Shown piece after piece: positions 10,545 through 62,265 of a DNA stretch of 64,000 nt. Where the stretch lies: NCBI RefSeq assembly GCF_000245755.1, contig NZ_JH601088.1, forward strand, positions 1,786,366 through 1,850,365. The letters run 5' to 3'. The notes beneath the pieces were generated by a model that worked only from the letters and a program-made list of their open reading frames with translations, ran no database searches and was not told the origin of the DNA. How positions within the stretch are numbered: position 1 is the first letter of the stretch; every line of letters begins with the position of its first letter. The position numbers and the translations under genes were made by a program. The stretch is from Helcococcus kunzii ATCC 51366. Lineage in GTDB: Bacteria > Bacillota > Clostridia > Tissierellales > Peptoniphilaceae.

Positions 10545-10860
10545 CCTAAACCTCAACACATTCTTTCCATTTTAAAATTTTATGTTGTCTTAAAAAAAAG
10601 GAGACAACACATCCAGCCCTTTTCTAAGATAAGTGTTGTCTCAAAAGATTGTTATTCATCGCATTATATTAATTTTTCAAAAGTGTGTTGTCGATTTTGT
10701 GACTAATAATCAACTTATTCAACACATTTGGCTATTTCTACCTATATATGTTGAACTTTCAATTTTTAATTCAACACATTTCTAAATTTTTTCCAAGTAT
10801 GTTGTCTCTCAAAAATTTTTTCAACACATTCTAGAATTATTCTCAAAATATGCTGTATTT
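10545..10860. repeat. Hairpin array 1: TCAACACAT / ATGTGTTGA words, about 52-bp period
   Basis: The word (T/A)CAACACAT occurs at 10552, 10604, 10719, 10771 and 10821. Its reverse complement or a close variant occurs between them at about 10582, 10632, 10684, 10748, 10799 and 10849. Forward words are 52, 115, 52 and 50 bp apart; the 115-bp step contains one decayed unit. The best stem is GAGACAACAC (10602) with GTGTTGTCTC. The rest of 10185-11130 contains the repeat and terminator elements listed next and no gene. Confidence 0.75.
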
Positions 10861-10934
10861 AAATGTACTTTAATAAAATATACTCTATTTTTTCCAAAGG
10901 ATTCAATGTATCCACACCATCTCGAGTAAAAATT

Positions 10935-10992
10935 TCTTCATTTTCGAGCGTCTCCGCAGGACGTAGTCCAAGGACCTAGCGAGAAAATGTTC
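10935..10992. repeat. Right copy of the GAGCGTCTC intergenic repeat
   Basis: ATTTTC, GAGCGTCTCCGCAGGAC, GTA, GTCC, AAGGACCTAGCGA, GAAAAT. Outer ATTTTC/GAAAAT and inner GGAC/GTCC can pair. It matches 2586-2640 and more weakly 2391-2443, all in the same orientation, so related copies lie on both sides of the defence operon. Confidence 0.55.
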
Positions 10993-11034
10993 CTTTTATA
11001 ATTAACATACCTCTAGAAGTAAACTATTTTGAAG

Positions 11035-11128
11035 TAAAAGTAAAATTATGCGCAGTGAGGAATACGCAGAAAAAGCTATAGCCTCTCGCTATAGCTTTTT
11101 CGAGTCACGCAACAAGCATAATTTTATC
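11035..11128 (-). terminator. Terminator of guaBA, right copy of the repeated hairpin element
   Basis: AAAAAGCTATAG and CTATAGCTTTTT pair at 11070-11100, 30 bp after the guaA stop, with a U-run in the minus direction. A longer outer helix is possible between TAAAATTATGCGCA and TGCG..GCATAATTTTA. The flanks (CGCAG before and CGAGTCACGCAA after) match the left element at 2461-2540. Confidence 0.75.
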
Positions 11129-11130
11129 TT

Positions 11131-12114
11131 TTACTCCCATTCAATAGTCCCTGTAGGTTTCGGAGTAAAGTCATACAATACTCTGTTTACGCCTGGGACT
11201 TCTGTTACTATACGTGCAACGATTGTTTGCATTAGTTCGAATGGTATGTTTTCGACTGTGGCTGTCATGGCGTCGGTTGTGTTGACTGCACGGATGATGA
11301 CTGGCCAGTCGAATGTTCTTTTGCCGTCTTTGATGCCTGTGGATCTGAAGTCTGGAATGACTGTAAAGTATTGCCATACTTTGCCTTCTAGGCCATTGTT
11401 GGCAAATTCTTCGCGTAGAATAGCATCGGATTGTCTTACGGCTTCTAGTCTGTCTCTTGTGATAGCGCCTAGACATCTAACTCCAAGGCCTGGTCCTGGG
11501 AATGGTTGTCTGTCAACCATTGAAGTTGGTAGGCCAAGTCTTTTACCGATGATGCGGACTTCATCTTTGAATAGGATTCTTACTGGTTCGACTAGTTCAA
11601 AGTTTAGATCTTCTGGTAGGCCACCAGAGTTGTGGTGGGCTTTGATACCTTCTTCACTTTCTAGGATGTCAGGCCAGATTGTACCTTGACCTAAGAATTC
11701 TACACCGTCAAGTTTACGAGCTTCTTCAACGAAGACTTCGATAAATTCGTGTCCGATGATTTTTCTTTTTTCTTCTGGATCTGTGATGTCTTTTAGTTTG
11801 TCAAGGAAGCGATCAACCGCATCTACATAGATTAGGTTGGCATCCATTTGGTTTTTGAAAACTTCGATTACTTGTTCTGGTTCACCCATTCTTAGTAGTC
11901 CATGATTTACATGTACGCAATAAAGTTGTTTGCCGATAGCTTTTATTAATAATGCTGCAACGACAGATGAGTCTACCCCACCTGAAAGTGCTAAAAGCAC
12001 TTTTTTATCGCCTACTTGTTGTCTGATTAAATCAATTTGTTCAGCAATAAATGCATCAGCTAATTGATCATTTGTAATACGTTCCATATTTTGAGGTCTT
12101 CTTGCGTCTGTCAT
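11131..12114 (-). CDS. guaA: GMP synthase, ATP-pyrophosphatase subunit only (no glutaminase domain)
   Basis: The 327-residue protein matches the second part of GuaA: the PP-loop LALSGGVDSS near the start adenylates XMP, and the C-terminal dimerization domain ends in VLYDFTPKPTGTIEWE. Standard GuaA is about 510-525 residues because it starts with a glutamine amidotransferase of about 200 residues. That domain is absent here, and the start is clear (AGGAGA, 6 nt, ATG). The split form is best known from archaea. No separate amidotransferase lies nearby, so ammonia may come from a distant subunit or from solution. It lies 10 bp after guaB, whose TAG stop is part of the ribosome site, so the pair forms a coupled IMP-to-GMP operon. 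Confidence 0.93.
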   Translation of the reverse strand: MTDARRPQNMERITNDQLADAFIAEQIDLIRQQVGDKKVLLALSGGVDSSVVAALLIKAIGKQLYCVHVNHGLLRMGEPEQVIEVFKNQMDANLIYVDAVDRFLDKLKDITDPEEKRKIIGHEFIEVFVEEARKLDGVEFLGQGTIWPDILESEEGIKAHHNSGGLPEDLNFELVEPVRILFKDEVRIIGKRLGLPTSMVDRQPFPGPGLGVRCLGAITRDRLEAVRQSDAILREEFANNGLEGKVWQYFTVIPDFRSTGIKDGKRTFDWPVIIRAVNTTDAMTATVENIPFELMQTIVARIVTEVPGVNRVLYDFTPKPTGTIEWE

Positions 12115-12124
12115 GTGTTGTCTC

Positions 12125-13585
<1,461 letters not shown>

Positions 13586-13651
13586 CTATTTTTTGTTAAT
13601 TAAATTATAACAATCATTTTAATATAGTCAACTTAAATATATGAAAAATAC

Positions 13652-13693
13652 AAAACTAGCTCTACAAATTTACTTGTAAAGCTAGTTTTTTTT
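13652..13693. terminator. Bidirectional terminator between guaB and the GH85 gene
   Basis: AAAACTAGCT and AGCTAGTTTT pair around a 21-nt loop that itself contains ACAA/TTGT. Reading minus it lies just downstream of the GH85 gene stop; the plus strand carries the longer T-run. Confidence 0.75.
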
Positions 13694-13724
13694 AATTTTA
13701 TTTTTTTAATTTAGTAGGAATGGT

Positions 13725-16700
13725 TTATCTTTTGCCTATCAATTTACCATTCCAAGTAAAATTGTACCATCTTCCATCAATCCATTGTCTGCCGGAAACT
13801 CTTGTACCTGTTGATGTTCTTAGATATGTCCAAACGCCGTCAATCCATTGCCATCCGTACGCTTGAGTGCCTGTGCCTGGTCTAAAGTACATCCAACCTA
13901 ATGGAAGTTTTTGCCATCCTGTAGCCAATGTACCGGATCTTCTGAAGAATCTCCAATTTCCATCAATCCATTGTCTACCCTTAACCATAGTGCCTGAAGA
14001 TAATCTAAAGAAGTATCTATATCCATTTTCTGGATTAGTCCACCAACCTTTTTGATATCTTGTTTTTGGTCCTTCTAAGGATAGCCAAATCATGCCATTT
14101 TCATGGTAAGTTTGTGTCATGGATTCACCTTTTGAATTGAAGAATTTCCATGTTTTATCAATCCATTTCCATTCAGACTTAGCTTGTTTTCCGTGATCAT
14201 AGTAGGTCCATTTATTTCCAACTTTTTCCCAACCGTGTTTTTCTGGTTGTTCTGGTTCTTCAGGTTCTTCTGGAATTTCTGGTTCATATGCAGGGAAATC
14301 TTCAATTGGTTTTTCAAAACCAAACACCTTAAATTCGTAGATTCTCGCTACGCTACCGCCTTGTTCCCCTCTGATTATATCTAATTTTACAAATTTCGCT
14401 CTTTCAATCACTGCGTGAAGAGTTTCATCTGCTTTGTTATCTTCCACTTTAACTATAGGTGTCCAATTTTTACCATCTTCACTAATGGAAATGTTGTAAA
14501 TTCTAGTATTGAATGCTGCATCTTCGCCACCTTTTGCTGCATGTAAGATTTCGAAACTTGTTATTGTAGATTCATTTTCTAATTCATACATAATCCAAGG
14601 CTTATCATTTGCATTGTCACACCATTTTGTAGATGGATTATTATCTTTTGCTTGTTCACCTGTTTCTGAGAACATATTACAGTTTGCGGAAGTTGTTACC
14701 TTAACGCCATCTCTTAGAGCTAAGTTTTCAATATCATAACCATCTTCGTATACTGTGATTATATTTTTCTTAACTTCTACATCTTGTCCTGAAGAGTTCT
14801 TAGCTGTTAATGAAACAGTGTATCTACCAGCTTCTGGGAAGCTTACCTTTACTTCTTCTCCCTTTAGATTTTCTTCATTTGCTCCAGGGATTTTCCATTC
14901 AAATGTAGAAGCAGAGATTGAAGATTTTTGTGTTAATGTTAGTTCTTCGCCTACTTTTACAAATCTCTTATTAAAAGTAAAATCAGCTTCTGGAACTGCT
15001 AGTTTGCCAAAATCAAATTCAAATTCTTTTGCTTTATCATTAAGTAGTTTACGATCTTGACTTAATGGAATCGCAACAAATTTAACGGTTGAATCTTCAT
15101 CACTAGGTCTTTTAATATTTTCAACATAATATCTTCCGTTATTAGTTGTACCAACTAATTCTCTACCTTCTGAAGATTCCATGTAAATATTTACTAGAGC
15201 ATCTTTATTAGTTTCAACTAAGAAATTAACTTTCGCAGAAACACCAGCATCTACTTCTTGTGATTCTGCCTTGAAGCTCTTGATATTTACATCTTTATCG
15301 ATTTGACCAATTGTTATATTTCCTAAATGTACCTTATTTGTTTCAGGGTTTGTAGTCGCAATGTTAACCCCAAATTTAACAATATTTTGTCCTGCAACAG
15401 AAGATAAGTCATATGTCACAGTGTCCCATTCACCCTTAGATTCTGTACCTTTTATAATAAACTCTTTATTTTCAGCATTTACTAATAACATGTCAAATCT
15501 AGCATCACCTTTTTTAGTTACAGATGCTTTCATGCCATTTTCAATTTTAATATTTGATCCAAATAGAGTACTCTTAGTGTTTCCACCTTTAGCCATAGCT
15601 CCTTCATATTTAATTGAAGAACCACCATAATAAACAGTGTTTACATCTAATTGAGGAACTAGTTTATTTCCATTTTCATTTTCATACATCCATCTATATG
15701 TTGGCATAATATCTTGTGTAGATCTATTTATGAATGTACCTTTTTTAGCTAATTTACCTTCTACGAAGAAGTTATCTCCAGCACCTTGGTTAAAACTTGA
15801 TGTGAATGGTAAACTTGTGATTGGAGTTTTTTCTGGGAAATGAGTTGAAATACCCTTCCAATTAATTTCTGATTCATTTCCAACTTTACCTGTACTGTTT
15901 ACCCATAAATCTTTTTCATATTTCCAAACAGTATTCCAGAAATCCATTCCTTCTTTGGATGCATTTGTTCTCATAACTGAGTCAGGAACATAAAATCCCA
16001 ATGAAACTTTTGGTGTTCCATCTTCATTCATAAGCATATCTAAAGTATCACCATATTGTCTATATAGGTAACCATTAAGACTGTTTGAACTTTGCACGTC
16101 AAAGCCGAAGAATGCATTCATTGGATCAAATCCGATTTCTTTTGATTTGTTTACTGTAGTGTCAGGAGAATAACCTCCCCATCTAAAGTCTACAAAAACT
16201 TCATCAGAAACTTCTTTACCATTGTCTCTTACATAATCATAGTTAAAATCATTGATTGCACCTTGCCATGAAACATATCCTGAATTAACCATGGCATCAT
16301 ACCAAACCATTGTTTTATCAGTCTTTTTATTATATTCAATTAAAAATTCTTTTAAGGCTTTTGCTGTTTCAGGGCTAACATTAGTTTCTTCATTAATAAA
16401 CCAACCATCAAATCCTAATGTATCAGCAATTTCAATCATTTTATCAAGTAAGACAAAATTTCCTTTTGAATCTTTTTGTACAAATTCATCTACCCATTTT
16501 TCTTGTCCACCGTAAGCTTCAGGTGGGAAAAATACAGTACCTACAACTTTTACACCATTCTTATGAGCAGAGTCAACAAAATCTGCAGAAGGCAACACTA
16601 TAATTCCTTCACCTGCTGATCCACCCCAATATACCAAGGTATCTACATATTGCCAATGTGTAAATGCATAACTATATCTATAGTCATCTCCACCTTGAGC

Positions 16701-17012
16701 TGGAGCGCCTGATGTAGTCGCATTGGCAATCATAATCGCCATTACTTTACCGTCACTATTTGCTGCCTTAAGACCAGCACCAACAAGTTTTTCTCTCTTT
16801 GCCAGTGGAGTCTTTGAAATATTATTTTTTTGATCTGGATACTTTTCTAAACTCCAGTCAATAATATCTTTTGGATGATAATGTCCCGCTGTTGGTTTTT
16901 CCAATTTTGCCGCCTGTACACTATTGAAAAATATCGAAATAGCGAACACAAGCACTAACGCAAATGCTACTCTAGCATATGAAAATGTTAGCTTTGATTG
17001 ATGTTTTTTCAT
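13725..17012 (-). CDS. Secreted endo-beta-N-acetylglucosaminidase (GH85, EndoD-like) with wall-binding repeats
   Basis: A 1095-residue exported enzyme. The signal peptide spans about 1-34 (cleavage near VQA). The GH85 catalytic domain covers about 40-500; [10 protein letters not shown] holds the N-x-E pair (Asn207, Glu209) used in substrate-assisted cleavage between the two core GlcNAc residues of N-glycans. Beta-sandwich regions follow, then a PKD domain (about 675-760), an F5/8 type C carbohydrate-binding domain (about 765-905), a Pro-Glu linker, and W/Y-rich wall-binding repeats (about 925-1095: [19 protein letters not shown]). The same repeat module ends the protein at 62564. EndoD-type enzymes remove glycans from host glycoproteins including IgG; that target is inferred. 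Single gene with its own terminator. Confidence 0.9.
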
Positions 17013-17379
17013 TAAATTTTTCCCCCTTATATACTATAAATTTTTGAATGTCCACCAAATATCAACCTACGTAACTTTCTTGTAATTGACCTCCTTGCAC
17101 AAAATCCTAAATAATTAAAGCCTTATCTTCCTTTTACTATTATTTTATATACTAATATTTTTATTAGCAAACCTTTTCTTCTTTAGGTTATGTTTTTAAT
17201 TTAAAGTGCTTTTATAGATAGAAAGTAAAAATATTTTCAGGATTTTACGTTTCAACAATTGTTGTTGTAGGGGCTTGGGAAATATTAATATAGAAATGGT
17301 TATTTAGAAGTACAGGGTTTATAAGGAGGATTTTAGTGTAGAAATGTAGATGTCGATGGAATTATTATAGTGGTTACAT
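17013..17379. other. Leader region of the GH85 gene, no gene seen
   Basis: This is the upstream region of the minus-strand GH85 gene. It should hold that gene's promoter, but I see no convincing -35/-10 pair and no operator. CAACAATTGTTG near 17250 is a short perfect palindrome of unknown meaning. Confidence 0.35.
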
Positions 17380-17800
17380 GTAGTATTACTTGGGAAATTT
17401 GAGAAAATGAATTTTACCAAGTAGTAAATTTCGTTGAATTACTTGGGTATTTCTAAAATGTCATTTTTACCAAGTAGTTAATTTTGCTGAATTACTTGGG
17501 TATTTCTAAATATCATTTTTACCAAGTAGTTAATTTTATTGAATTACTTGGGTATTTCTAAAATGTCATTTTTACCAAGTAATTTAATTCAGTGATTTAC
17601 TTGGGTATTTTAATATTTAAAATTTACAAAGTAAAATTTTAGAAAAATTTTGAAAAAATTACTTGGTTATATTTAAAATCAAAAATAACCAAGTAAATGT
17701 GCTAAAAATCTTACTTGGTTATTTTAGAATATTGAATTTACCAAGTAAATTGGTAGGGTTTACTACTTGGTTATTTTGAAAATTGAAATTTACCTAGTAA
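17380..17800. repeat. Hairpin array 2: TTACTTGG / CCAAGTAA words, 53-bp period, eight units
   Basis: Forward TTACTTGG words start near 17386, 17439, 17492, 17544, 17597, 17659, 17711 and 17764. Reverse CCAAGTA words (one decayed to CAAAGTAA, one to CCTAGTAA) lie near 17417, 17470, 17521, 17574, 17626, 17689, 17741 and 17791. Forward steps are 53, 53, 52, 53, 62, 52 and 53 bp. Units 2-4 are almost identical along their full length, so they arose by tandem duplication; the others keep the words while the spacer drifts. No reading frame runs through the array. Confidence 0.9.
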
Positions 17801-17819
17801 ATTAAAATAACTACGCACA

Positions 17820-17886
17820 AAACAAAAGTCCATTACAATAACCCTCATTACCTTTACTGTAATAATCGTGTTATCATAACGGACTT
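17820..17886 (-). terminator. Terminator of the serpin gene
   Basis: On the minus strand AAGTCCGTTA pairs with TAATGGACTT (one G-U pair), with smaller inner pairs, followed by TTGTTTTG. It begins 10 bp after the serpin stop codon. Confidence 0.6.
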
Positions 17887-17896
17887 AATTCATCCT

Positions 17897-19273: not shown

Positions 19274-19324
19274 AGGCCCTCCAGGTTATTGTTATTTATT
19301 ACTTCTGATATTATTTTAACATTT

Positions 19325-20392
19325 TTACTTATCTTTCACAATCCTAAAATCGCTGATTAACAATAGCATGCTCCAAATTAAACCAACTGATAAAGCAATA
19401 TGTCCTAAGCCTGCAAGACCTGAAAACATTGCATTATTGAATAGTTCTGCACCATTCCCAATGACTTGATAGATACCCCTAATAAACATCATAGTTATTG
19501 AGAATAGCATACCGAAAATCCAGTGATTTACAGGAATTTTATACTTAGAAATGTCCTTCTTGCCAAGTGAAGAAATTAGAAGGAAGATTATCATTCCTAA
19601 GATAAATCCAAGCACTAAGGTGTGAGTGTGTAAAACAGAAAGCATGCTGTATTCGTTAAATTTAAAGTATTTTGTAAATTCTCTGAAAAACACTCCTGCT
19701 GCCAAACCAAAAATTAAGGAAATATATGAAAATTCAAGTATGTCCATTCCTGAAAATTCTGATTTGTATTTCTTGTATCCAAAATATGCTAGAAGGAAGT
19801 ATGCAACAGTTTTTGGAAGCATAAACATTCCCACTAATGGGTATTTGTCTGCAAATAGCACTACTGGTAGGTAGAATAAAAATGATAAGAAAATCAGTAT
19901 TGAAAATTTCTTAAACAATTTATTTTCTTTATATGAAAGTACCATTAAAATTACGCCCATTATTGTAAATGGCACGTTTCTGATAATGACCCATGTTAGG
20001 TTTGGTTCTGCTGAACCCCAGTTATTTTGTGGAAGCAATGTCAAAATTACTCTTGCTGCAAATAATGCATACATCAAAATGTCCATTCCCTTATTATTTT
20101 TATTTGTTTCTCTCTTATAGTAGAAATAATAAAGTAGGTAGAACACTGTCATTGTAATGGATGTGACCATTTTACCCCATGATAGTATGCTCACAAATCT
20201 TTCCATTCCATTTTCTGTCATATGAGCCATAATTCTTGGTACAAGGTGAAATGAATCACCAACCCCAAGTAATACAGCCATTAACCCAAATGTCTTCGCT
20301 CCCTTTTCTTTTATAAATAGCATTTTGATACCTAGTGAAATAACTAAAACTAGATACATAACGTCAAAAATTGATTCAAATAGTCCTGCCAT
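19325..20392 (-). CDS. Polytopic membrane protein with C-terminal DUF2871-type domain
   Basis: A 355-residue protein with about ten hydrophobic segments. The C-terminal 145 residues (SLIFGLAAGVFFREFTKYF, LHTHTLVLGF, GHIALSVGLIW) resemble the DUF2871 family, whose conserved histidines suggest heme or metal contact, though this is unproven. The N-terminal half also contains histidines (SFHLVPRIMAH) in a second membrane bundle I cannot name. It overlaps the upstream TetR gene by 17 bp, so both are on one transcript and this protein is probably what the regulator controls. That suggests a membrane-stress or small-molecule response. No substrate is known. Confidence 0.7.
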   Translation of the reverse strand: MAGLFESIFDVMYLVLVISLGIKMLFIKEKGAKTFGLMAVLLGVGDSFHLVPRIMAHMTENGMERFVSILSWGKMVTSITMTVFYLLYYFYYKRETNKNNKGMDILMYALFAARVILTLLPQNNWGSAEPNLTWVIIRNVPFTIMGVILMVLSYKENKLFKKFSILIFLSFLFYLPVVLFADKYPLVGMFMLPKTVAYFLLAYFGYKKYKSEFSGMDILEFSYISLIFGLAAGVFFREFTKYFKFNEYSMLSVLHTHTLVLGFILGMIIFLLISSLGKKDISKYKIPVNHWIFGMLFSITMMFIRGIYQVIGNGAELFNNAMFSGLAGLGHIALSVGLIWSMLLLISDFRIVKDK

Positions 20393-20957: not shown

Positions 20958-21036
20958 GTTTCACCTTCCTTTTATTTGTGAGAATGCAGATTGATATAAG
21001 TGAAATTGTATTGTCATATATCACATTCAAAACAAA

Positions 21037-21105: not shown

Positions 21106-21834
21106 TTATTCTAAAACTTTTGAAAGAAATTCCTTCGTTCTCGCTTCCTTAGGATTTTCAAAAATTTCTTTAGGAATGCCGACTTCTGTAATCCTGCCAT
21201 CACTCATAAATACAACTCTATCGGATATTTGCTTTGCAAAATTCATTTCATGCGTTACTAAAACCATTGTCATCCCACTAACTGCAAGATCTTTCATAAC
21301 GTCCAAAACTTCTTTTACCATTTCTGGATCTAAAGCAGATGTAACCTCGTCAAATAGCATGATTTCAGGTTCCATAGCAAGCGCCCTAGCAATTGCTATT
21401 CTTTGTTTTTGCCCTCCTGAAAGTTTATTTGGATAAACATCGATTTTATCTTCCAAACCTAGGATTTTTAATAGTTCTTTCGCCTTTTCTTCCGCGGAAT
21501 GCTTATCATATTTTCCCGTAAGTGCTGGAGCTAAAGTAATATTTTCTTTTACTGTCATATGAGGAAATAGATTAAATTGTTGAAATACCATTCCAAGCTT
21601 TTGTCTAATCATATTTAATTGTTTTTCATTTTTAGTTATCTTCTCGTCTTTAAAATATATGCTCCCCTCATCTGGTATTTCCAACATGTTTATACATCTA
21701 AGGAATGTTGACTTACCTGAACCAGAAGGACCAATAATAGAGATAACTTCACCTTTTTCAATTTCAAAATTAATGTCTTTCAAAATCTGTTTATTATTAA
21801 AACTCTTTCCCAAATTTTCAATCTTAATTATCAT
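21106..21834 (-). CDS. Polar amino-acid ABC transporter ATP-binding protein
   Basis: A 242-residue ABC ATPase of the GlnQ/HisP type: Walker [11 protein letters not shown]-loop [12 protein letters not shown], signature LSGGQKQR, Walker [15 protein letters not shown] and switch histidine VTHEMNF. It powers uptake through the substrate-binding/permease fusion encoded just upstream; the two genes overlap by 11 bp. The T-box leader further upstream suggests that the substrate is a proteinogenic amino acid. Confidence 0.95.
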
Positions 21835-23254
21835 AATTTAACTTTCCTTCCATTAATTTCATTAATCTTGTCAATGTAAATGTTAATACAAAGTAAATAA
21901 TTGAAACTATCATTAATGGCTTCATAGCCTCAAAGGTCAAACTTTGAATCTTTGTTGTTTGAAACATCAATTCACCAACACCAATTGTAGAAGCGATAGA
22001 TGTTTCTTTAATTAAGGTTACAAATTCATTTCCTAATGCAGGCAAAATATTCTTAAACGCTTGTGGCAAAATTATCTTCTTCATTGTTTGATTTTCAGAT
22101 AGCCCCAAACTTCTACCCGCTTCCATTTGTCCTTTTGAAATGGATTCAATACCAGATCTAATAATCTCGGACACATAAGCTGCAGAGTTGATAGACACCG
22201 CTATAATTGAAGATGTGAATGCAGAAGTCTTCGCACCTAACACATCCAGTCCAAAATATACAATCAAGATTTGAAGCATCATTGGAGTTCCACGGACAAT
22301 TTCAACAAAAGCTCCAATAATAAAAGAAATCACCGGAATATGTTTCATCCTAATCAATATAAAGACCATTCCTAACACAAATCCAATAAGTAGTGAAACC
22401 AATGAAAGCAAGAGTGTAGTTTCAATCCCTTTAACAAAAAGTCCATAATGATTTGGTTGCTCTGCATCATTCATCAATTTATTTGAATCAATCACCCATT
22501 CATCAACTAAATTCTTTTCCTTTATCTCCTTGATTACCTTATTAACTTCTTGTGTCAATTCCTTAGCATCTTCCCTCATCGCCACAGCTGAACCTTGAGA
22601 ATCATCCTTCACTTCAACATCTTTAACAACTGTCAAATCAGAATTAGACAATACATATGAATCCGCAACTGGCTTTTCCATCAATATCGCATCAATCTTA
22701 CCTGACTTCAACTCCAGTAGTAAAGTTGTCACAACCGGCAATCCTTTAGTCTTAATATCCTTAATTCCCTTAGCCAATTCCTCCTGAACAGATCCTAATT
22801 GAACACCAATAGTCTTTCCTTCAAAATCTTTCAGAGTTTTATACTTCCCTTCATCCCCTTTTCTTATAATAAAACCATGTGTTGAATTGTAGTAAACATC
22901 TGAAAAACTCGCCTTTCTCTCAGGTGATGGAGACATCGCCGCAATAACCATGTCAAATGTCCCCGTCTCCAAACCAACAAGTAATGATTCAAACTTTACA
23001 TCCTGTATCTCTAGCTCTACACCCCACTTTTCAGCAATATATCTTGCCATCTCCATATCAATACCTACATATTCTGTCTTACCACCTTTATTAGTGATAA
23101 ACTCATATGGAGGATAATCAGCAGAAGTACCAACTACCAATTTATCTTTATTGTTTAATAACTTTTTCACTTCTTCATTGCCAGATTTATTCCCACTACA
23201 GGCCGTCAATAGCAGAATAAAAACTGTTAATATTGCAAATACCTTCTTTTTCAT
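21824..23254 (-). CDS. Amino-acid ABC transporter, fused substrate-binding protein and permease
   Basis: A 476-residue fusion common in Firmicutes. Residues 1-20 are a lipoprotein signal (LLTACSG, cysteine at about 19). Residues 35-255 form a family 3 periplasmic-type binding domain ([29 protein letters not shown]). Residues 270-470 form a GlnP/HisMQ-type permease with the [22 protein letters not shown] coupling loop (EAA motif). The ligand cannot be read directly; the DMEMAR and PPYEF motifs fit polar or basic amino acids. The T-box upstream points to arginine or glutamate, at low confidence. Confidence 0.93.
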
Positions 23255-23319: not shown

Positions 23320-23625
23320 AAATTTCAGTAAAATTTTTGATTTTTTATTTTATACTGTCACTCCATTTTAAAGTTCAGCTTATTTTTCATTTTCTAAATT
23401 TATACTGAGCATTTTCTCCATTTCTTCAGCATAATGTACAACTATTGCTTTTTATACTGTTTTTTAGGAATGTCTAACATTCTTTTTTCAGTTTATTTCT
23501 TATAAATACCAAATTATACTGTCTTTTGAAGAATTTTCCTCAGTATAAATTTGATATTTTAATTTTATACTGTCTTTAAATTTTTCCATTCAGCTTAATT
23601 TTCAATTCCTAGGATTTATACTGAT
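23320..23625. repeat. Hairpin array 3: TTATACTG / CAG(T)ATAA words, about 52-bp period
   Basis: Forward TTATACTG words start near 23350, 23400, 23452, 23514, 23565 and 23617 (steps 50, 52, 62, 51 and 52 bp). Reverse partners, mostly decayed (TTCAGTAAAA, TTCAGCTTA, TTCAGCATA, TTCAGTTTA, CTCAGTATAA, TTCAGCTTAA), lie near 23326, 23376, 23427, 23489, 23541 and 23591. The array lies between the T-box leader and the transporter it should control, so it would be part of the mRNA leader. Confidence 0.75.
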
Positions 23626-23888: not shown

Positions 23889-24130
23889 TAAAAAAAAAGT
23901 AATTCATCTTACAAGAAGACGAATTACTTTCCGCGGTACCACTTCAATAATCACAATACGATTGTGATCTCTCTTAATATAACGCCATTTAGCGAAGTAG
24001 GATACTCGAATGTTTTCTTTGTCCTACTCATCTCAACAACTCTCTTCGCTATAAGTCTGTTTGCTGCCTCTCACCATCTGCAACTCTCTGTATAACATTG
24101 TTATAGTTACTCTTTGTTTCAAAGATTTTG
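23889..24130 (-). promoter_or_regulatory. T-box riboswitch leader with terminator
   Basis: Minus-strand reading shows a stem I region with AGAGAG and the distal-loop GATGGTGAGAG, then the T-box AAGTGGTACCGCGG (23944-23931). An intrinsic terminator follows (GTAATTCGTCTT/AAGATGAATTAC, then nine T). T-boxes bind uncharged tRNA through a specifier codon and stop termination when the amino acid is scarce. The lower stem AACAA/TTGTT places the specifier in CGAAGAGAG; by analogy with GAAnXYZ it would be AGA (Arg), with GAG (Glu) as the alternative. The first downstream gene is the amino-acid ABC importer at 23254. Confidence 0.88.
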
Positions 24131-24215
24131 TTTTTTCCATTAATTGGGTATATTTTATTGTCACAATAAATTTAGTACTTATTCTATAAAAAATAGAATG
24201 ATTTGTCAAAATTTT

Positions 24216-28277: not shown

Positions 28278-28809
28278 GTCGCACCTCTTTATTTAGTAGT
28301 TGTTTATTTTGTAGTTAACTTCATTATAACGTAATGGGGATATTAATAAAGGGGAATGGAGTTGAAAGGTTGGAATTTTGAATGACCTCCTAACCCCTGA
28401 ACCGCATTTGAGGGAATAAATTATATTTTGTATGGTCCTAATATACCCCCCTACCGTATATTTTAGACCATGCTCAATTTTTTATGGTCCGTATATACCC
28501 CCACCCAGTATATTTGGGACCATAGAATTTCTCAGGATTCATTATTTTTGATTATTATACTTCCCTTTTTCCCCTCAACTCTATAAAACTACTCGCGATT
28601 CAATATGTTAGGGCAATAATATCTGTTAGCTTAATTTCCCTCAACTAAAAATATTCCAAATTAGGCCCCCGGCACATACGAGGGTATTATTGCTGTAAAC
28701 CCTCAAACAAAAAAAAACCGATACACCCCCATTTGTAGCAGTCTTTTTTCAACAGTTCATTTTTACCTACTTGAGGTACCCCCAATGAACCTTTTTTATT
28801 AACTTTGGA
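28278..28809. other. Intergenic region with two-unit hairpin array
   Basis: No gene is supported. Array 4a (28431-28523) is annotated separately. Further left, GAGGGT/ACCCTC (28681-28709) can form a hairpin, and minus-strand GTTCATT/AATGAAC (about 28765-28795) near the end of the downstream surface-protein gene may be its weak terminator. The region also holds unusually C-rich runs (CCCCCG, CCCCCA) for such AT-rich DNA. Confidence 0.5.
28431..28523. repeat. Hairpin array 4a: TATGGTC / GACCATA words, 52-bp period, two units
   Basis: TATGGTCC occurs at 28431 and 28483 (52 bp apart), with (G)GACCAT partners at 28466 and 28518 (52 bp apart). Inside each unit ATATACCCCC and GTATATTT form a second, inner inverted pair. 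The same word and inner CCCC/GGGG design recur at 61961-62260. Confidence 0.85.
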
Positions 28810-49599: not shown

Positions 49600-49870
49600 A
49601 CAGGCCTAGCATATTGGGAAAATTCAAAAACGCTAGGGTCAAAAACGGCTTCAAAACCCTAGTGAATTGAGATAATACGAAAACGCTAGGGTCAAACTAG
49701 GGGAAAAGTTCGATTTTTAGCCCCTGCAAATTAAGAAAATTCAAAAACGCTAGGGGCAAAGCTCGATTTTTAGCCCCTGCAAATTAAGAAAATTCAAAAA
49801 CGCTAGGGAAAAAGCTCGATTTTTAGCCCTTGCAAATTAAGTAAATTCAAAAACACTAGGGTCGAAAGTG
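49600..49870. repeat. Hairpin array 5: CGCTAGGG / CCC(C)TGC words, 53-bp period
   Basis: Forward CGCTAGGG words start at 49631, 49684, 49748, 49801 and (as CACTAGGG) 49854: steps 53, 64, 53 and 53 bp. Reverse partners CCCTAGTG (49657), CCCCTGC (49720 and 49773) and CCCTTGC (49826) lie between. The last three units are near-identical over their whole length (AAATTAAG..AAATTCAAAAA..GCTCGATTTTTAG), so recent tandem duplication is clear. GCCTAGCA at 49604 looks like an older reverse word. Confidence 0.88.
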
Positions 49871-49980
49871 TTTCCTTCTAGATCTATGGCATTTATTACT
49901 TTTGTACATTTTTATATTGTCATTTACATAAATCCATTCTAAATAAGGTTCATTAATAACTGATGAAAGGTTCTCACCAA

Positions 49981-50098
49981 CAGATATTGATGTACCAAAA
50001 ATATCTGAAAATATCTGATAAGAGCCCCCTACATCCATTGATGGGCCTCAAGTGATGAATGGCGAAGAGGTACGGTATAGCTCCTACAGATATTGATG
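49981..50098. repeat. Decayed array 6: CAGATATTGATG words, about 53-bp spacing
   Basis: CAGATATTGATG occurs at 49981 and 50087, 106 bp apart, with a decayed copy CATCCATTGATG about halfway (50032). The extended word ACAGATATTGATGAAC also occurs, inverted, before the old-yellow-enzyme gene at 61734. Confidence 0.5.
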
Positions 50099-50113
50099 AA
50101 CCATTATTTAACC

Positions 50114-53109: not shown

Positions 53110-53118
53110 AAAACCCTC

Positions 53119-53397
53119 CTAACTTAATTTTTCTTTAATATCTTCTAACACTTCTGAAGCACCCATGCCTGTAAGTAAAGCCATACCGCTAACTACAGGT
53201 TTAGTCACGCTTGCATTATCGTACTTGCCAGTAGCAATGATTAAATCATAAGCATCTTGTTTTGAAGGTACTTCTAATAATTTACATTGATCTACAGTTG
53301 CAGCAATATTATTTTCTTTAAGAAAATCTCTTACTTTTGATGCCACCATTGTAGAAGTCGCTACTCCATTTCCACAAGCCACTAATACTCTTTTCAT
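53119..53397 (-). CDS. PTS EIIB component, galactitol family
   Basis: A 92-residue protein starting KRVLVACGNGVATSTMVASKVRDFL; Cys8 in the CGNGVATS loop is the phosphorylated residue. Length and motif match GatB-type EIIB. Confidence 0.95.
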   Translation of the reverse strand: MKRVLVACGNGVATSTMVASKVRDFLKENNIAATVDQCKLLEVPSKQDAYDLIIATGKYDNASVTKPVVSGMALLTGMGASEVLEDIKEKLS

Positions 53398-53398
53398 A

Positions 53399-56464: not shown

Positions 56465-56603
56465 ACCTACCACCTTAATTTGATACTATCACTATAACTA
56501 TATACTGAAAAGATTTAATACGTTCTGTTAAACGGAAGTGTATTGTACTATTGATTTAAATAGTTTTATTTTAACTTTTTAAGGAATGTTTCTCAATTTA
56601 AAA

Positions 56604-56627
56604 CAAAAAAAAGAGGTTTCCCTCTTT
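56604..56627 (-). terminator. Terminator of the ABC exporter operon
   Basis: Minus strand: AAAGAGGGAAACCTCTTT followed by a T-run, 10 bp after the ATPase stop. Confidence 0.8.
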
Positions 56628-56635
56628 CATTTTCT

Positions 56636-57307
56636 TTATTCTTCTGTCAATTTACCATCTGTAATCTTAAACACTCTATCACAATATTCTAAAAGTCTAT
56701 TATCATGAGTAACCATGACTGTCGTCCTATCAGATTCTCTTGTTATATCTTTTAAGATTTCAACAACTTTGATAGCTCTTTCGGTATCTAAACTTGCAGT
56801 TGGTTCATCAGCTAAAATTAGCTTTGGTTCTGGATAAAGTGCCCTTGCAATGGCTGCTCTTTGCCTTTCACCACCTGATAAATCTCCTGGATATTGTTTC
56901 TTTCTTTTTAGAATGTCAAACTTTTCCATTAATTTTTCTGCTTTATCTTTATCAAATTTCTTCTTTTTGAATTTATCAACAAGTTCAAATTGCTCTTCAA
57001 TTGATAAATATGGCACTAAATTTGACGCCTGCAAAATAAATCCAATTTTATCAAACCTTAGATTATTTCTATCTTTTTCGCTCAATGATGTAATATCTTC
57101 TCCATTAAAAAGTATCTTTCCTTCACTCGGTTTCTGTAAACCACCCATAATGGTTAGAAGTGTGGATTTACCTGATCCAGAAGGCCCTATAATTGCTATC
57201 AACTCTCCAGAATTTATAGAAAAGGAAGATTCTTTTAATGCTTCAATAGTTTCATCCCCATCTTGAAATGTTTTCTTTACTTTTTCAAATTTCACTATTT
57301 CGCTCAT
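56636..57307 (-). CDS. ABC transporter ATP-binding protein (MacB/HrtA type)
   Basis: A 223-residue ATPase with [11 protein letters not shown] (Walker A), FILQASNLVPYLSIEEQFELV (Q-loop), LSGGERQRAAIARAL (signature), LILADEPTASLDTE (Walker B) and VTHDNRLLEYCDRV (switch histidine). It belongs to the LolD/MacB/HrtA branch that works by pushing substrate from the membrane outside. Its partner is the FtsX-type permease encoded 8 bp upstream. Confidence 0.93.
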   Translation of the reverse strand: MSEIVKFEKVKKTFQDGDETIEALKESSFSINSGELIAIIGPSGSGKSTLLTIMGGLQKPSEGKILFNGEDITSLSEKDRNNLRFDKIGFILQASNLVPYLSIEEQFELVDKFKKKKFDKDKAEKLMEKFDILKRKKQYPGDLSGGERQRAAIARALYPEPKLILADEPTASLDTERAIKVVEILKDITRESDRTTVMVTHDNRLLEYCDRVFKITDGKLTEE

Positions 57308-57315
57308 GTTTACTC

Positions 57316-58491
57316 CTATTCTAAAACTTCTAGTGGATCTACTTTGGTAACACCTCTAACAGAGAATATCGCACCAAGCATTGAAATGACTACTATTAAT
57401 ACTGCTATTATTAAATAGAATATATAATTTGATTTAAATGGAACTGTCTGTGGCAACAATAATTCTGAAATTAATGTTAATCCAAGTCCCATTAAAACTC
57501 CAATCAAACTCACTAAAAATGTCTGTGTAATCACTGAATTGGCGATGTATTTATTTGATATACCTTGCACTTTCATTATGCCAAATGTCTGTTTCTTTTG
57601 AATGGTAATGATATACATAAATACGCCCAACACAATTGTAGATATCAATATTAAAAATCCAATCATAAGTCCGAATGTAAGTACTTGTGCAATATATCCA
57701 GGTAATTCTTTTATAAAATCATCCATTGTGATGACATCATATTTTTCATTTGATTTTAGATCGTTTTGTCCGTGTATTAAAATCCCTGCGACTCTTTCAG
57801 GAACTGTATTTGTCGCTTTTGAAACAGTGTCTGCATCTTGCGCTTTAGAATTATTTGGTTTTTCTCCATTTTTTTCTTCTGCTTTGTTTTGATTAGCATC
57901 TTTCTCATTTTCTGTGAACATCATATTAGTTGAAGAAGCTTCATACAATTCTGTGTAAATCACCGAACCAACATTATATTTTGATTCTTCCGTAAAACCG
58001 ACTACTTCATATTCTTTATCATTTAAACTTAAAACTAATTTATCACCTATTTGTACATTATCTTCTTTTTTCAATGAGATAGAAGCAATGACTTGATTTT
58101 TATTCTTCGCTTCATTTCCTTCTATAATCTTTGGATATGCCTTTGAACCCTTATCCAGTCCAACAAGCACTAAATCAATAGTGTTTTTATCAGTCTCTGA
58201 CCCATTTTTATATGCTACCGCTCTAGATAAATTTATTGGAGAAATCTCATAATCCTTAAAATCCTCTATCGCTTCTTTCTCCATCATTGAAGAAGCTAAA
58301 TTTGAATTTGTACCAGCTTTTAGCACAATCTTATCTGCATTCCAATTTTCTACCGCCGTTGTGTTATCCTTAGCAAGTCCATATGCTAATCCTGTAAGGA
58401 AAAACACTAAATAACTTATTAAAATTACTATACCAATAATTAAAATAAATCTTCCTTTTTCTTTTTTCATTTCTTTAAGTGCTAAAAACAT
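57316..58491 (-). CDS. FtsX-like ABC permease, HrtB/MacB type
   Basis: A 391-residue permease with one N-terminal membrane segment (about 15-38), a large outer domain with an acidic, low-complexity loop (about 200-235) and three C-terminal segments with the FtsX signature (TIVLGVFMYIITIQKKQTFGIMKVQGISNKYI). The start MFLALKEMKKEKGRFILIIGIVILISYLVFFLTGLAYGL closely resembles HrtB/YvrN-type permeases. HrtAB pairs extrude heme; others move peptides or lipids. No heme sensor (HssRS) is nearby, so the substrate is uncertain. Confidence 0.88.
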   Translation of the reverse strand: MFLALKEMKKEKGRFILIIGIVILISYLVFFLTGLAYGLAKDNTTAVENWNADKIVLKAGTNSNLASSMMEKEAIEDFKDYEISPINLSRAVAYKNGSETDKNTIDLVLVGLDKGSKAYPKIIEGNEAKNKNQVIASISLKKEDNVQIGDKLVLSLNDKEYEVVGFTEESKYNVGSVIYTELYEASSTNMMFTENEKDANQNKAEEKNGEKPNNSKAQDADTVSKATNTVPERVAGILIHGQNDLKSNEKYDVITMDDFIKELPGYIAQVLTFGLMIGFLILISTIVLGVFMYIITIQKKQTFGIMKVQGISNKYIANSVITQTFLVSLIGVLMGLGLTLISELLLPQTVPFKSNYIFYLIIAVLIVVISMLGAIFSVRGVTKVDPLEVLE

Positions 58492-58565
58492 TATTCCTCC
58501 TAATAAAATTAGACTAATACATACTTACCCTTAATAAACCACACCACGCAAAAAATATTTTAATT

Positions 58566-59873
58566 TTATTGATGACTCTTTTCTTTATTAATCATCACAT
58601 CCAGTAACATTTCATAAACTGGCTTAATCTTAATCATTTCAATTACAAGATATGATATCATCGCACCTAAACTTATTGGTAAGAAGTAAACAAATGCTCC
58701 GGTCATTTCAAGTATTAAAAGCATGGCTGTGATTGGGCTTCTTACAATCGCTGAAAAATTTGCAGCCATTGCAATTAGAGAAAATACTATGATGTATTCT
58801 TGTCCAATTAGTCCAAGTGAAACCATTACACTTGCAAAAACATTCCCAATAAGGGCACCTAATACAAGCATTGGTAAAAATATCCCACCTGGCATACCTG
58901 AACAAAACGCCAATAGAAGTAGTACAAATTTAGCGATAAGTAAAAATATTTGTGTTTGAATGTCCGCATTTAATTCTATAGGCATAAAGATAAAATGTTC
59001 TCCAGATCCAAATAGATTTGGGAAATTGATGATTACAAGTGCTGTAAACACAAATGGAAACACTATTTTCAGATAGACTGGCAATTTAATCTGATTATAT
59101 AAGACTTTTAGGTGAAATATCCCTTTAATGAAAAATTGAGATAAAAGTCCAATAATTACGGATAATAAAATAATTAAATAATAGTTTCCTATAGGAATTT
59201 CCTTAAGGTGACCTACGTCTATTACTGGTTTTGTACCAAATATTAAACTTGAGACATAGTCGGATAAAAATGCTGCTGATGCAGCTATTAAAAATATGTA
59301 TCTATCAAATTTTTGATGCAATTCTTCTAACACAAATACCAATCCTGATAAAGGCGCATTAAATGCTGAAGATAATCCCGCTGCTGCTCCTGCTGTGATA
59401 AATAGCTTTTTATCCTCTTCCTTTCTATTGCCTATTTCTCCAAGAGAATGACCAACAGTTGCTCCCATTTGCACTGAAGGACCTTCTCTACCAACCGTCA
59501 ATCCAGAAACAAGTCCTATCAAACCACCGATAAATTTAAATGGTAAAACTTTTTTCCAATTAATAGACATTATTCCCTTCATTTGACCAGAAACCTGTGG
59601 AATACCTGAACCTCCAATTTTTGGTTCATTTTCTGTCAATTTTCCAACTATAAGTCCAAAGATAAAAATTACTAATAATACTAAAATAAGATTTACAATT
59701 GAAAATTTGGCACTTTCATAAAATAATATCATCTTTGATTGCAAGAAAATTACTAGTTTTCTATAAATAGATATCAATATACCAACCAAAACACCTATTA
59801 TTGACCCATACATCACTAAACTAGCCAATTTCATCGAATCAGCCCTATGCTTAATTTTATATAATTGTTTCAT
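58566..59873 (-). CDS. ClC-family chloride channel/antiporter
   Basis: A 435-residue membrane protein with the three ClC selectivity signatures: GSGIPQV, GREGPSVQMGA (gating glutamate) and GMPGGIFLPMLVLGA. The serine of GSGIP favours chloride over fluoride. A glutamate expected for the inner proton path may lie in EELHQKFDRY (the position matching E203), in keeping with an antiporter. No CBS domains. Likely role: acid resistance or charge balance. Single gene. Confidence 0.93.
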   Translation of the reverse strand: MKQLYKIKHRADSMKLASLVMYGSIIGVLVGILISIYRKLVIFLQSKMILFYESAKFSIVNLILVLLVIFIFGLIVGKLTENEPKIGGSGIPQVSGQMKGIMSINWKKVLPFKFIGGLIGLVSGLTVGREGPSVQMGATVGHSLGEIGNRKEEDKKLFITAGAAAGLSSAFNAPLSGLVFVLEELHQKFDRYIFLIAASAAFLSDYVSSLIFGTKPVIDVGHLKEIPIGNYYLIILLSVIIGLLSQFFIKGIFHLKVLYNQIKLPVYLKIVFPFVFTALVIINFPNLFGSGEHFIFMPIELNADIQTQIFLLIAKFVLLLLAFCSGMPGGIFLPMLVLGALIGNVFASVMVSLGLIGQEYIIVFSLIAMAANFSAIVRSPITAMLLILEMTGAFVYFLPISLGAMISYLVIEMIKIKPVYEMLLDVMINKEKSHQ

Positions 59874-59963
59874 TATAATTAACCTCCGAAAAAAATTATA
59901 CTACTCAGCTTTCAAATTTTAAAATTTAATTTTTTATTAAGTTTAATATAAAAATTATTGGTG

Positions 59964-59969
59964 TATAAT
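59964..59969 (+). promoter_or_regulatory. -10 box of the acetyltransferase gene
   Basis: TATAAT lies 30 bp before the GTG start, with no strong -35 at the right distance (GTTTAA is the closest). Confidence 0.45.
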
Positions 59970-59998
59970 ATATGTAGAAACAATTTTAGGAGAAAGTT

Positions 59999-60598
59999 GT
60001 GAATATAGAAATTAGAAAAGAAACATTAGAAGAACATAAAATAGTTGAAAATATTGTAAGAGAATCTTTTTGGAATCTTTATCAACCAGGTTGCAATGAG
60101 CATCTGATTTTACACAATTTTAGAGGAAAAAACCACTATATTGATGAACTTTCCAATATAATTTTAGTCGACGGTATAATCGTTGGGCAAATAATGTTTA
60201 GTAAAGCTGAATTAACAAATATCAAAAATGGCGAGAAACTAGATATCATCGTTTTTGGACCAGTATCCATTCTTCCTAAATATCAAAAACAAGGAATTGG
60301 TGAAAGACTTATAAGGGATGCTATCTCTAGAGCTCGTGATTTAGACTATAACTATATTTTAATCTTCGGAAATCCACAATATTATCATAAATTTGGATTT
60401 AAGACCGCTCAGCATTATGGCGTAATCATTGAAGGTCAGGACTTTCTAAAAGAATTAGATTATGTAATGCTGCTTGATTTGCAGCATGATGGTATGATTT
60501 CACAAGAAAGTGGACCATGGCTATATAAAAATCCCGAAGGCTATGATGTAGACGAAAATGAATTAAAAGAATTTGACAAAAATTTTGATAAAAAATAG
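59999..60598 (+). CDS. GNAT-family N-acetyltransferase (YhbS-like)
   Basis: A 199-residue protein starting with GTG behind AGGAGAAAG. The GNAT core includes DIIVFGPVSILPKYQKQGIGERLIRDAISRARDLDYNYILIFGNPQYYHKFGFKTA; KQGIG is the acetyl-CoA loop and GNPQYYHKFGF the typical end of YhbS-like members. Substrate unknown. It is transcribed divergently from the ClC gene and ends in a bidirectional terminator. Confidence 0.9.
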   Translation: MNIEIRKETLEEHKIVENIVRESFWNLYQPGCNEHLILHNFRGKNHYIDELSNIILVDGIIVGQIMFSKAELTNIKNGEKLDIIVFGPVSILPKYQKQGIGERLIRDAISRARDLDYNYILIFGNPQYYHKFGFKTAQHYGVIIEGQDFLKELDYVMLLDLQHDGMISQESGPWLYKNPEGYDVDENELKEFDKNFDKK

Positions 60599-60628
60599 TG
60601 CTGATGCCCTGCATCAACACTATTTTTT
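60591..60628. terminator. Bidirectional terminator
   Basis: AAAAATAGTG and CACTATTTTTT pair, with an inner TGATG/CATCA stem, between the converging acetyltransferase and flavin-reductase genes; it overlaps both gene ends. Confidence 0.88.
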
Positions 60629-61715
60629 ACTTATCCAACCTTAATGTCTGTACATAATCCCACAAGCTCTTATTTCTTAAAGCTTGTTCATCAATACCTA
60701 ATTCAGAAAGAATGGCAGTCTTTTCACCATTTAATATCTTTTGACCCCACCTTGGATCATGGATTAAACTTCTACCAACCACCACCATGTCTGCTTTTGA
60801 TAATACATTTTCCACATCTTCTGCCGTTTCCACACCTCCTGGACAAAGCACCGGAATCCTTCCATTTGCAGTATCTACTACATAATCAATTATCGGTTTA
60901 TCGGCATATTCTTTTTCTACAGAAACTCTATCATATTCATTAGTTGAAAGATGAAGATAATCCAATTCTTTCACAGATAATTTATCAACTAGATAAAATG
61001 TATCTTCCATTCTTAGACCTGGTTCCTCAAACTCTTCTGGGGAAAATCTATATCCCACAATAAATGGATTCTCAGCATTTTCCTTAACTGTAGCAATCAC
61101 CCCATCAACAAGCTCATCTATAAACTTAAATCTTTTTTCTCTCGAGCCGCCCCATTCATCCTCTCTTCTATTAGAATGAGCAGAATACATCTGTTGAATT
61201 AAATATGTATTTGCCCCATGAATCTCTACTCCATCAAATCCAGCTTTTATCGCCCTAACTGTCGCCAATTTAAAATCCTCAATTACTTGCAATATTTCTT
61301 CAGACTCTAAAGCCCTTGGAACTTCCGCACCTTCTCTTAATGATTTCACAGCACTCGCAGAAACAGGCTGTTTACCATTCAAAACTTTACTTGATGTCAT
61401 GCGACCCGCATGAAATATCTGTACTATCACCTTAGCACCTTTTGACTTTATCGCATTCGCTAATTTTCTCAACCCCGGAATAAATCTATCATCATAAATG
61501 CCTAATTCACCATGCCATCCCTTACCAATCTCCTGAACATTTGCCGCAGCAGTTATCACCGCCCCAATATCATGCGATCTATTTTCATAATATTCAATCT
61601 CATCTTTTGTAACTTCCCCATTATAGAAACTTAGTTGAGTTGTCATAGGTGCCATGACAATAGGATTTCTCAATTCAACACCATTTGGCAATCTCACTTT
61701 TTTCAAATTTAACAT
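60627..61715 (-). CDS. NADH-dependent flavin oxidoreductase (old yellow enzyme family)
   Basis: A 362-residue FMN barrel: NPIVMAPMTTQLSF, VIVQIFHAGRMT, DGVEIHGANTYLIQQMYSAHSNRREDEWGGS (HxxN proton-donor pair and FMN ligands) and VVGRSLIHDPRWGQKI at the phosphate site. It reduces alpha,beta-unsaturated carbonyl compounds. The fused iron-sulfur/NAD domains of 2,4-dienoyl-CoA reductases are absent, so it belongs to the short YqiG/NemA-like group. Substrate unknown. The long inverted repeat just upstream may control it. Confidence 0.9.
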   Translation of the reverse strand: MLNLKKVRLPNGVELRNPIVMAPMTTQLSFYNGEVTKDEIEYYENRSHDIGAVITAAANVQEIGKGWHGELGIYDDRFIPGLRKLANAIKSKGAKVIVQIFHAGRMTSSKVLNGKQPVSASAVKSLREGAEVPRALESEEILQVIEDFKLATVRAIKAGFDGVEIHGANTYLIQQMYSAHSNRREDEWGGSREKRFKFIDELVDGVIATVKENAENPFIVGYRFSPEEFEEPGLRMEDTFYLVDKLSVKELDYLHLSTNEYDRVSVEKEYADKPIIDYVVDTANGRIPVLCPGGVETAEDVENVLSKADMVVVGRSLIHDPRWGQKILNGEKTAILSELGIDEQALRNKSLWDYVQTLRLDK

Positions 61716-61733
61716 AAAACACTCCTTTTATTT

Positions 61734-61781
61734 GTTCATCAATATCTGTTGGGGTGTAAATTCCATCAGTTATTGATGAAC
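61734..61781. repeat. Inverted repeat before the old-yellow-enzyme gene (single array-like unit)
   Basis: GTTCATCAATATCTG and CAGTTATTGATGAAC match in 14 of 15 positions across an 18-nt spacer, about 20 bp before the start codon. It could be an operator or mRNA hairpin, but its word is that of the decayed array at 49981-50098, so it may be one unit of the array family. Confidence 0.6.
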
Positions 61782-61954
61782 CCTTTTATTTTATTTCTAA
61801 TAAGGATATACCCTATTTATGGGAAATGTATAAGGGATGGTGGTAATGTGTATGGATATTGTGGTTACATAGCAGAAATATATAGAAGTAGGTTTGGAAT
61901 TAGTTGATGTTAGCGAGGTTTGTATATTTTATCATGATTTAGATATTTTATAAT

Positions 61955-62265
61955 GGAATTTATGGTCTTAATATACCCCGCCTAGGTATTTTTTGGACCA
62001 TAACTATTATTTTTATGGTCCGTAGATACCCCTCCCCAGTATTTTTTAGACCATACAATTTGAGGATATTATAAAAATTATGGTCCCTAGATATCCCTCC
62101 CCAGTATATTTGAGACCATAGTTTTACAAATTTATATAATATTCTCGACTGAATCTTTTAAATCTATGGTCCATTCTATACCCCCCCTGGGGTATTCTGA
62201 GACCATAAATTTCGTAGACGTACTCCATAATATACCCCCTAGGGGTATTTTGGGACCATAGATTT
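61955..62265. repeat. Hairpin array 4b: TATGGTC / GACCATA words with inner CCCC/GGGG pairs, five units
   Basis: Forward TATGGTC words start near 61961, 62014, 62079, 62165 and (decayed, CTCCATAA) about 62222. Reverse GACCATA words start near 61995, 62049, 62114, 62201 and 62254. Forward steps are 53, 65, 86 and about 57 bp. Within units ATACCCC faces AGGTATT or GGGGTATT, giving a second stem; the last two units (ATACCCCCCCTGGGGTAT and ATACCCCCTAGGGGTAT) are near-perfect palindromes. The word is shared with 28431-28523. The rest of 61716-62486 holds no gene. Confidence 0.85.

Follow-up and report, generated by a model that had tools for sequence, protein, structure and literature searches.

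The 64-kb window analysed here, C1:1786366-1850365 of the 2.10-Mb, two-contig genome of Helcococcus kunzii ATCC 51366, contains intergenic arrays in which a short word and its reverse complement alternate at steps close to whole helical turns. Arrays of this class very probably belong to a family of nuclease-like genes, which they adjoin in this and other genomes. The simplest account that joins the facts is a cognate nuclease-array system, in which the arrays are the DNA sites of a PD-(D/E)XK-type nuclease-like family with one word family per protein; we consider it probable.

Arrays adjoin nuclease-like genes

Paralog clustering of 680 open reading frames (ORFs) exposed a family of proteins of about 265 aa, three of whose four sampled members adjoin arrays. 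Matches to the gene number six in this genome (one of them broken), 2, 4 and 7 in same-genus relatives, and 5 and 6 in two other genera of the bacterial family, with none in 19 of the 25 genomes searched. From the 30 matching places in these six genomes, seven broken or fragmentary ones were dropped and 23 genes without internal stops were examined (that at L270 being only 148 aa). An array was called in the flanks of 21 of the 23 genes, 15 upstream and 10 downstream with four on both sides, and 16 of the 23 reached a score of at least 7; shuffled flanks gave an array call in 1 of 460. The five intact copies in this genome are associated with five different word families (TATGGTC, TGGTACTAA, ACCCTAGC, TATACACA and TTTCCTGATTA), the array lying 60-157 bp upstream of the start in every case, and the broken copy has one TTACTTGG-type match nearby and no called array.

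In a class-wide search at E <= 1e-20, 27 of 391 genomes, counting this one, carried the family, frequently as multiple copies. Five further homologues, with four of their genomes belonging to one family (f43) and three of those four to one genus, all have an array upstream, little downstream DNA being covered; their words are TGCCTATA, CTGCCACTAT, CCCTGTC, GTGTCCC and GTCCGTAC, with periods of 54, 53, 54, 62-63 and 53 bp, respectively. A nearly blind set consisted of 80 GuaA-encoding bacterial records, mostly labelled Clostridia (1,108,207 bp), searched with a coding-repeat filter at score 7. Six arrays passed. The set contains just four nuclease-like genes, and each has one of these arrays at a distance of 8-71 bp; the four cases are not fully independent, as every gene is 3' of guaA and one pair shows 92% identity. 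The remaining two arrays are 5.4-5.7 kb away, in the same records as two of the linked arrays, and repeat the word of the linked array.

Relatives without the gene were also searched. About 930 kb from 15 of them, including a few stretches picked near weak TTACTTGG DNA matches, gave no such array at score 7 or higher apart from one array resembling clustered regularly interspaced short palindromic repeats (CRISPR); with a wider step range, some repeats of other geometry were seen, e.g. of about 100 and 80 bp. Three other Helcococcus genomes, which carry the gene elsewhere, contained six solo arrays in unselected stretches; in the same search, a 42-bp array beside a gene (L226) was removed by the coding filter. 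In the 11 gene pairs with at least 50% identity the words, read by eye, are more similar than in other pairs (0.63 vs 0.49, P 0.0001; P 0.0026 without the 92% pair), and no word-protein correlation was found over all gene pairs.

Several neighbouring observations concern these loci. The gap 3' of guaA holds an array in the window (10554-10860) and an array with a nuclease-like gene in four Lachnospiraceae records (L009, L036, L059 and L060); the array word of L009 and L036 is similar to the stem of a terminator-like hairpin after guaA, as if the array had grown from the hairpin. An empty-site comparison at guaA was uninformative, since the Helcococcus genomes differ in gene order. Another Helcococcus (G003) has 113-bp composite repeats of alternating 52- and 61-bp steps (L126:3513-4300 and 19451-20000; L212-L215; L267), and in L267 the nuclease-like gene lies between two such arrays. 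A 61-bp-period array in another genus (L137:36-1775) looks like an ordinary CRISPR, with a constant repeat and unrelated spacers.

Plain autoregulation, the main rival, would have the protein bind the array by its own gene and control its expression, the dispersed arrays being decoys or regulated sites and no spreading taking place. The upstream arrays of all five intact genes here and of the five further homologues are what this reading predicts. However, in G014 and G001 the top array call is downstream of the gene, four of the 23 genes have arrays on both sides, and arrays lie about as far from gene starts as from gene stops (medians 230 and 245.5 bp); moreover, the catalytic residues described below are invariant although a repressor would not need them. 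We therefore regard autoregulation as unlikely.

A PD-(D/E)XK-type nuclease-like family

The proteins have no Pfam match at E <= 1e-4 and no NCBIfam match above cut-off. All 29 of 29 sequences have E159, D190 and E205, the acidic catalytic residues of the PD-(D/E)XK type, and also H206, which follows E205. The N-terminal 115 residues share 25% average identity, compared with 47% for the nuclease half. The predicted structure is confident (predicted local distance difference test score, 91.8), and the C-terminal half of the model aligns best with I-Bth0305I and TnsA and has the PD-(D/E)XK superfamily fold; Foldseek alone returned nothing at E <= 0.001 for the model, and among solved structures no relative was found by sequence (best E 0.78). 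Residues and model together thus mark the family as PD-(D/E)XK-type nuclease-like, with metal-dependent DNA cleavage as a predicted activity. The N-terminal half is modelled as a helical hairpin around a small sheet and may help to read the word; its structural matches, such as prefoldin, are helical-hairpin look-alikes and uninformative either way.

At E <= 1e-10, one query retrieved 1,141 proteins. Of these, 120 were listed; they all lack a Pfam domain, and the named sources among them include Butyrivibrio. Carriage of the gene by phages or plasmids was considered and rejected, next to no relatives being present in their records: IMG/VR gave 12 pattern matches and no confirmed relative, and the same threshold with one query gave 1 match in 50,697 phage records, without annotation, and 1 in 72,556 plasmid records, which covers the nuclease half only and lies under an AAA ATPase gene.

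In the four proteins scanned, the nuclease half is similar to the nuclease portion of PDC-S68, a candidate defence family of PADLOC (E of the best model, 5e-29 to 5e-23). This likeness points towards a defence nuclease, for which the arrays would be a self-mark or a titrating reservoir holding the enzyme until phage attack releases or activates it. However, only the last 100-170 or so of about 1,200-1,270 PDC-S68 positions match (best matches at approximately 1091-1219 of 1221, 1050-1196 of 1202 and 1124-1246 of 1273), and one word per paralog would be left unexplained, so that we find a defence role quite improbable.

Arrays of the window and the genome

The window contains the following arrays and neighbouring gene:

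10554..10860, no strand: solo array, CAACACA/TGTGTTG family, in the gap 3' of guaA, recognised by its sites and steps
11131..12114, minus strand: GMP synthase gene (guaA, C-terminal)
17386..17800, no strand: solo array, TTACTTGG/CCAAGTAA family, eight forward words with steps of 53, 53, 52, 53, 62, 52 and 52 bp
23326..23624, no strand: solo array, CAGTATAA/TTATACTG family, steps of 50, 52, 62, 51 and 51 bp
28431..28524, no strand: two-unit array, TATGGTC/GACCATA family
49604..49861, no strand: solo array, CCCTAGC/GCTAGGG family, steps of 53, 64, 53 and 53 bp
61961..62260, no strand: solo array, TATGGTC/GACCATA family, steps of 53, 65 and 86 bp

An earlier note on this DNA had assigned one design to seven stretches. 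Six of them do hold arrays, in which a word of 8-12 bp alternates with its reverse complement at steps of 50-54 and 62-66 bp, with a single 86-bp step in the last. Word sites with at most one mismatch were counted in each stretch and compared with the highest count among its 300 dinucleotide-shuffled versions, giving 10 vs 5 (10545-10860), 16 vs 4 (17380-17800), 9 vs 3 (23320-23625), 9 vs 4 (49600-49870) and 9 vs 6 (61955-62265). The stretch at 28431-28523, two units long, has 4 vs 4; its period is 52 according to Tandem Repeats Finder, and it has the TATGGTC word in common with 61955-62265. The seventh, 49981-50098, turned out to be something else: its two copies of CAGATATTGATG, 106 bp apart, lie within a different palindromic element (AAGGTTCAT...ATGAACC). 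That element, as AAGGTTCAT...ATGAACC(TT) and without the 53-bp geometry, occurs at window positions 49945-50104 and at L100:18881-18934.

A word-agnostic detector was also used, in which 8-mers differing by no more than one base were chained at spacings of 48-57 or 59-67 bp and an inverted partner raised the score. At a score of at least 5 it found 5 arrays in the window, and dinucleotide-shuffled sequence (5 x 64 kb or 400 kb) gave none. Across 864 kb, or 41% of the genome (the window and 40 stretches of 20 kb), there were 48 array calls in 42 merged clusters, set among 733 gaps between ORFs, with about ten word families, including TTACTTGG, TTTCCTGATTA, TTACATGTG, ACCCTAGC, TATGGTC, CAGTATAA, ACGATGAT, TGGTACTAA, CAACACA and TATACACA. 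Exact 8-mer repeats peak at lag 53 (584, compared with tens or fewer at most lags off the period multiples). The earlier note's view that the word differs and the geometry, not the sequence, is kept applies between families; within most families the word is the best-kept part, and the word of one family can recur at many loci. For example, the 17386..17800 array has DNA matches at more than 12 other places in the genome, the weakest being single units; outside the species, the TTACTTGG query gives only short weak matches, in 13 of 40 relatives. Composite arrays also occur, with TTTCCTGATTA units followed on the T-rich strand by TTACATGTG units (L096, L098 and both arrays in L100).

The arrays are mainly intergenic, an ORF call of at least 70 aa being overlapped by 8 of the 42 clusters, and divergent gaps hold 4 of 41 arrays, compared with 25 of 120 gaps longer than 250 bp. 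No gene family lies beside more than a few of the 42 clusters; an all-against-all comparison of the array neighbours yielded surface-type proteins, transporter pairs, a few other pairs and three members of the nuclease family. Large proteins that are paralogs of one another occur repeatedly beside arrays (window 13725-17012 and 62564-63556; L175:9991-16566; L178:7741-11562; L094:13881-16004); one of them weakly matches a surface protein model. At L095:9869-10427, beside two ordinary arrays, 53-bp direct repeats (CTACGGAG and GCACTGT words) without clear inverted words are broken by a masked stretch.

Step lengths and helical phase

Among 200 hairpin-to-hairpin steps in ten families, 171 are 49.5-54 bp, 13 are 62-65 bp, two are 42, one is 72, two are 81-82, three are 85-86 and eight exceed 100 bp, some steps being possibly counted twice where CAACACA and TATACACA matches share the same three stretches (L102, L160 and L166). 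No step falls at 42.5-49, 54.5-61.5 or 66-71.5 bp. The word-to-reverse-word span is constant within several families (39 bp for all 37 TTACATGTG units, 37 bp for all 17 ACCCTAGC units) and varies little in most others; that of TATGGTC, 44 bp, coincides with the edge of the range searched and may be truncated.

After removal of duplicates, ten exceptional steps remain, and at a period of 10.5 bp they keep phase with the main step (P 0.0005). Fitting the period anywhere from 8 to 14 bp gives a best value of 10.3 (P 0.004), and taking only one step per class gives P 0.02. The steps of 81-82 bp fit poorly. The modal periods of 29 gene-linked arrays fall at 42-45 (3 arrays), 51.7-54.2 (18) and 61.8-64.2 bp (8), i.e. 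approximately 4, 5 and 6 turns, with a resultant at 10.5 bp of 0.82 and an offset of 0.19 bp, which was reached by 0 of 20,000 uniform draws, a P value that overstates independence as the arrays are partly related by descent. All 40 step classes, including the off-phase 36, 37 and 68, give 0.65 (again 0 of 20,000 draws). The three period classes recur across different genera with different words, and the CCTAG family has a period of 53 bp here and an array of the same core word in another Helcococcus one of 64. Clustering of steps at multiples of about 10.4 bp and helical phasing on DNA, both put forward in the earlier note, are thus borne out in 41% of the genome and in relatives, the step quanta being about one turn. 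Intrinsic curvature by phased A-tracts was rejected: tract power peaks at 26.5 and 13.25 bp, not at 10.6 bp.

Duplex DNA more likely than RNA hairpins

Over 1,983 paired arm positions there are 265 single-arm changes and 30 double changes (14 expected), 16 of which restore a Watson-Crick pair; the units were picked for at most four mismatches, which trims the double changes somewhat. The second arm, when left unselected, is better kept than the loop in 8 of 10 families (0.92 vs 0.60 for TTACATGTG), the two others being CAGTATAA (0.52 vs 0.55) and TATACACA (0.50 vs 0.49). Stems are intact in many units, as would be expected if the arrays worked as RNA hairpins in transcripts. One array is also placed suggestively: that at 23326-23624 lies between a T-box leader (23912-24131, minus strand) and the amino-acid ABC transporter gene which the leader probably controls (21824-23254, minus strand). 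As the whole array is in between, transcripts from the leader may run through it.

However, the arm changes are mostly uncompensated, and G.T and A.C mismatches on the T-rich strand are similar in number (54 and 68, with 157 others). Measured against genes or against GC skew, the arrays favour neither strand clearly (17 of 47 and 20 of 54), near-whole-turn step quanta would be meaningless in RNA, and the only Rfam match within the window is the T-box. Since the arm changes are rarely compensated and no strand preference is clear, double-stranded DNA fits better, in line with the earlier note, and we give the RNA hairpin reading hardly any credence.

The same note had thought of nucleoid or segregation sites, a role to which the helical phasing, the spread along the chromosome and the double-stranded character of the arrays would be suited. 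However, the arrays are present sporadically and go with the nuclease-like genes, each intact copy here having its own word, and there are many words per genome. No concentration in one part of the chromosome was evident among the 38 placed stretches and the window, though no formal test was applied, and no case was seen here of arrays being conserved in a genome that had always lacked the gene. A nucleoid or segregation role is very improbable, and the suggestion was probably wrong.

A proposed cognate nuclease-array system

Under a cognate nuclease-array system, protein dimers would bind the inverted word pair on duplex DNA, the word being read by the variable N-terminal half or by the nuclease itself, and a spacing of 4, 5 or 6 turns would set successive dimers on one face, so that they could stack along the array. 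Such binding of each protein to its word in a phased stack is, in our judgement, somewhat favoured. The assembled nuclease may cut or nick at the arrays, and repair of the breaks could lengthen them and place copies elsewhere between genes, which would account for solo arrays like the window's six. That the protein spreads the arrays is a more speculative proposal, towards which we lean less than towards its opposite.

The closest parallel is that of repetitive extragenic palindromic (REP) sequences and bacterial interspersed mosaic elements (BIMEs) with their REP-associated tyrosine transposases (RAYT; TnpA-REP, a Y1 HUH transposase). Both systems have short intergenic palindromic units that are clustered, belong to several families per genome and occur as dispersed solo copies, and in both a cognate endonuclease gene is flanked by its own repeats (here at 21 of 23 genes), although the enzymes are unrelated. 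In contrast to REP/RAYT, the partner here is of PD-(D/E)XK type, there is little arm compensation, and the tandem arrays are long with a near-whole-turn period. The RAYT/Y1 transposase (PF01797) was looked for and rejected as the partner, with 0 matches in this genome and matches in 5 of 14 control genomes. REP units are described (PMC3733652) as having an unpaired GTAG or CGTC tag at one end; neither tag is present in the 12-bp flanks of the ten family consensuses, and GTAG follows the arm in some TTACTTGG units (CCAAGTAG) but not family-wide. By analogy, the nuclease-array system may be REP/RAYT-like in logic and built from unrelated parts.

Other systems are alike in single features. CRISPR also form regular intergenic repeat arrays with periods of 50-65 bp; unlike CRISPR, with their near-identical repeats of 20 bp or more and unrelated spacers, these arrays have words of 8-12 bp in alternating orientation, and the loops and between-word sequences are related from unit to unit. 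The PADLOC candidate defence proteins PDC-S68/S69 have the nuclease domain in common, but no match to the PDC-S68 models is full-length. TnsA of Tn7 and I-Bth0305I-type homing endonucleases differ in that no listed match covers both halves of the protein and in that the gene here adjoins repeat arrays. The res sites of Tn3 and gamma-delta consist of dimer sites with inverted half-sites whole helical turns apart, where +10 bp is tolerated and +5 is not. They are alike in this whole-turn spacing and unlike in having three subsites for a serine resolvase, compared with many-unit arrays and a nuclease here. Nothing recognisable as these arrays or as the array-gene pairing was found in the literature, in a search thin on subscription journals.

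The system could be a new kind of element, a nuclease that reads its word only as inverted copies stacked in helical register and that writes and spreads its own arrays, word and reader co-evolving towards many independent specificities per genome; we put this forward tentatively, as less than an even prospect. Under the cognate nuclease-array reading, helix-phased repeats found genome-wide and a large protein family without annotation share one, directly testable role. If true, it would add a further type of enzyme-repeat partnership to REP/RAYT and CRISPR, one in which a DNA word and its reader co-evolve; new DNA-binding specificities could naturally be drawn from it, and it would act as a new force on intergenic DNA in Clostridia.

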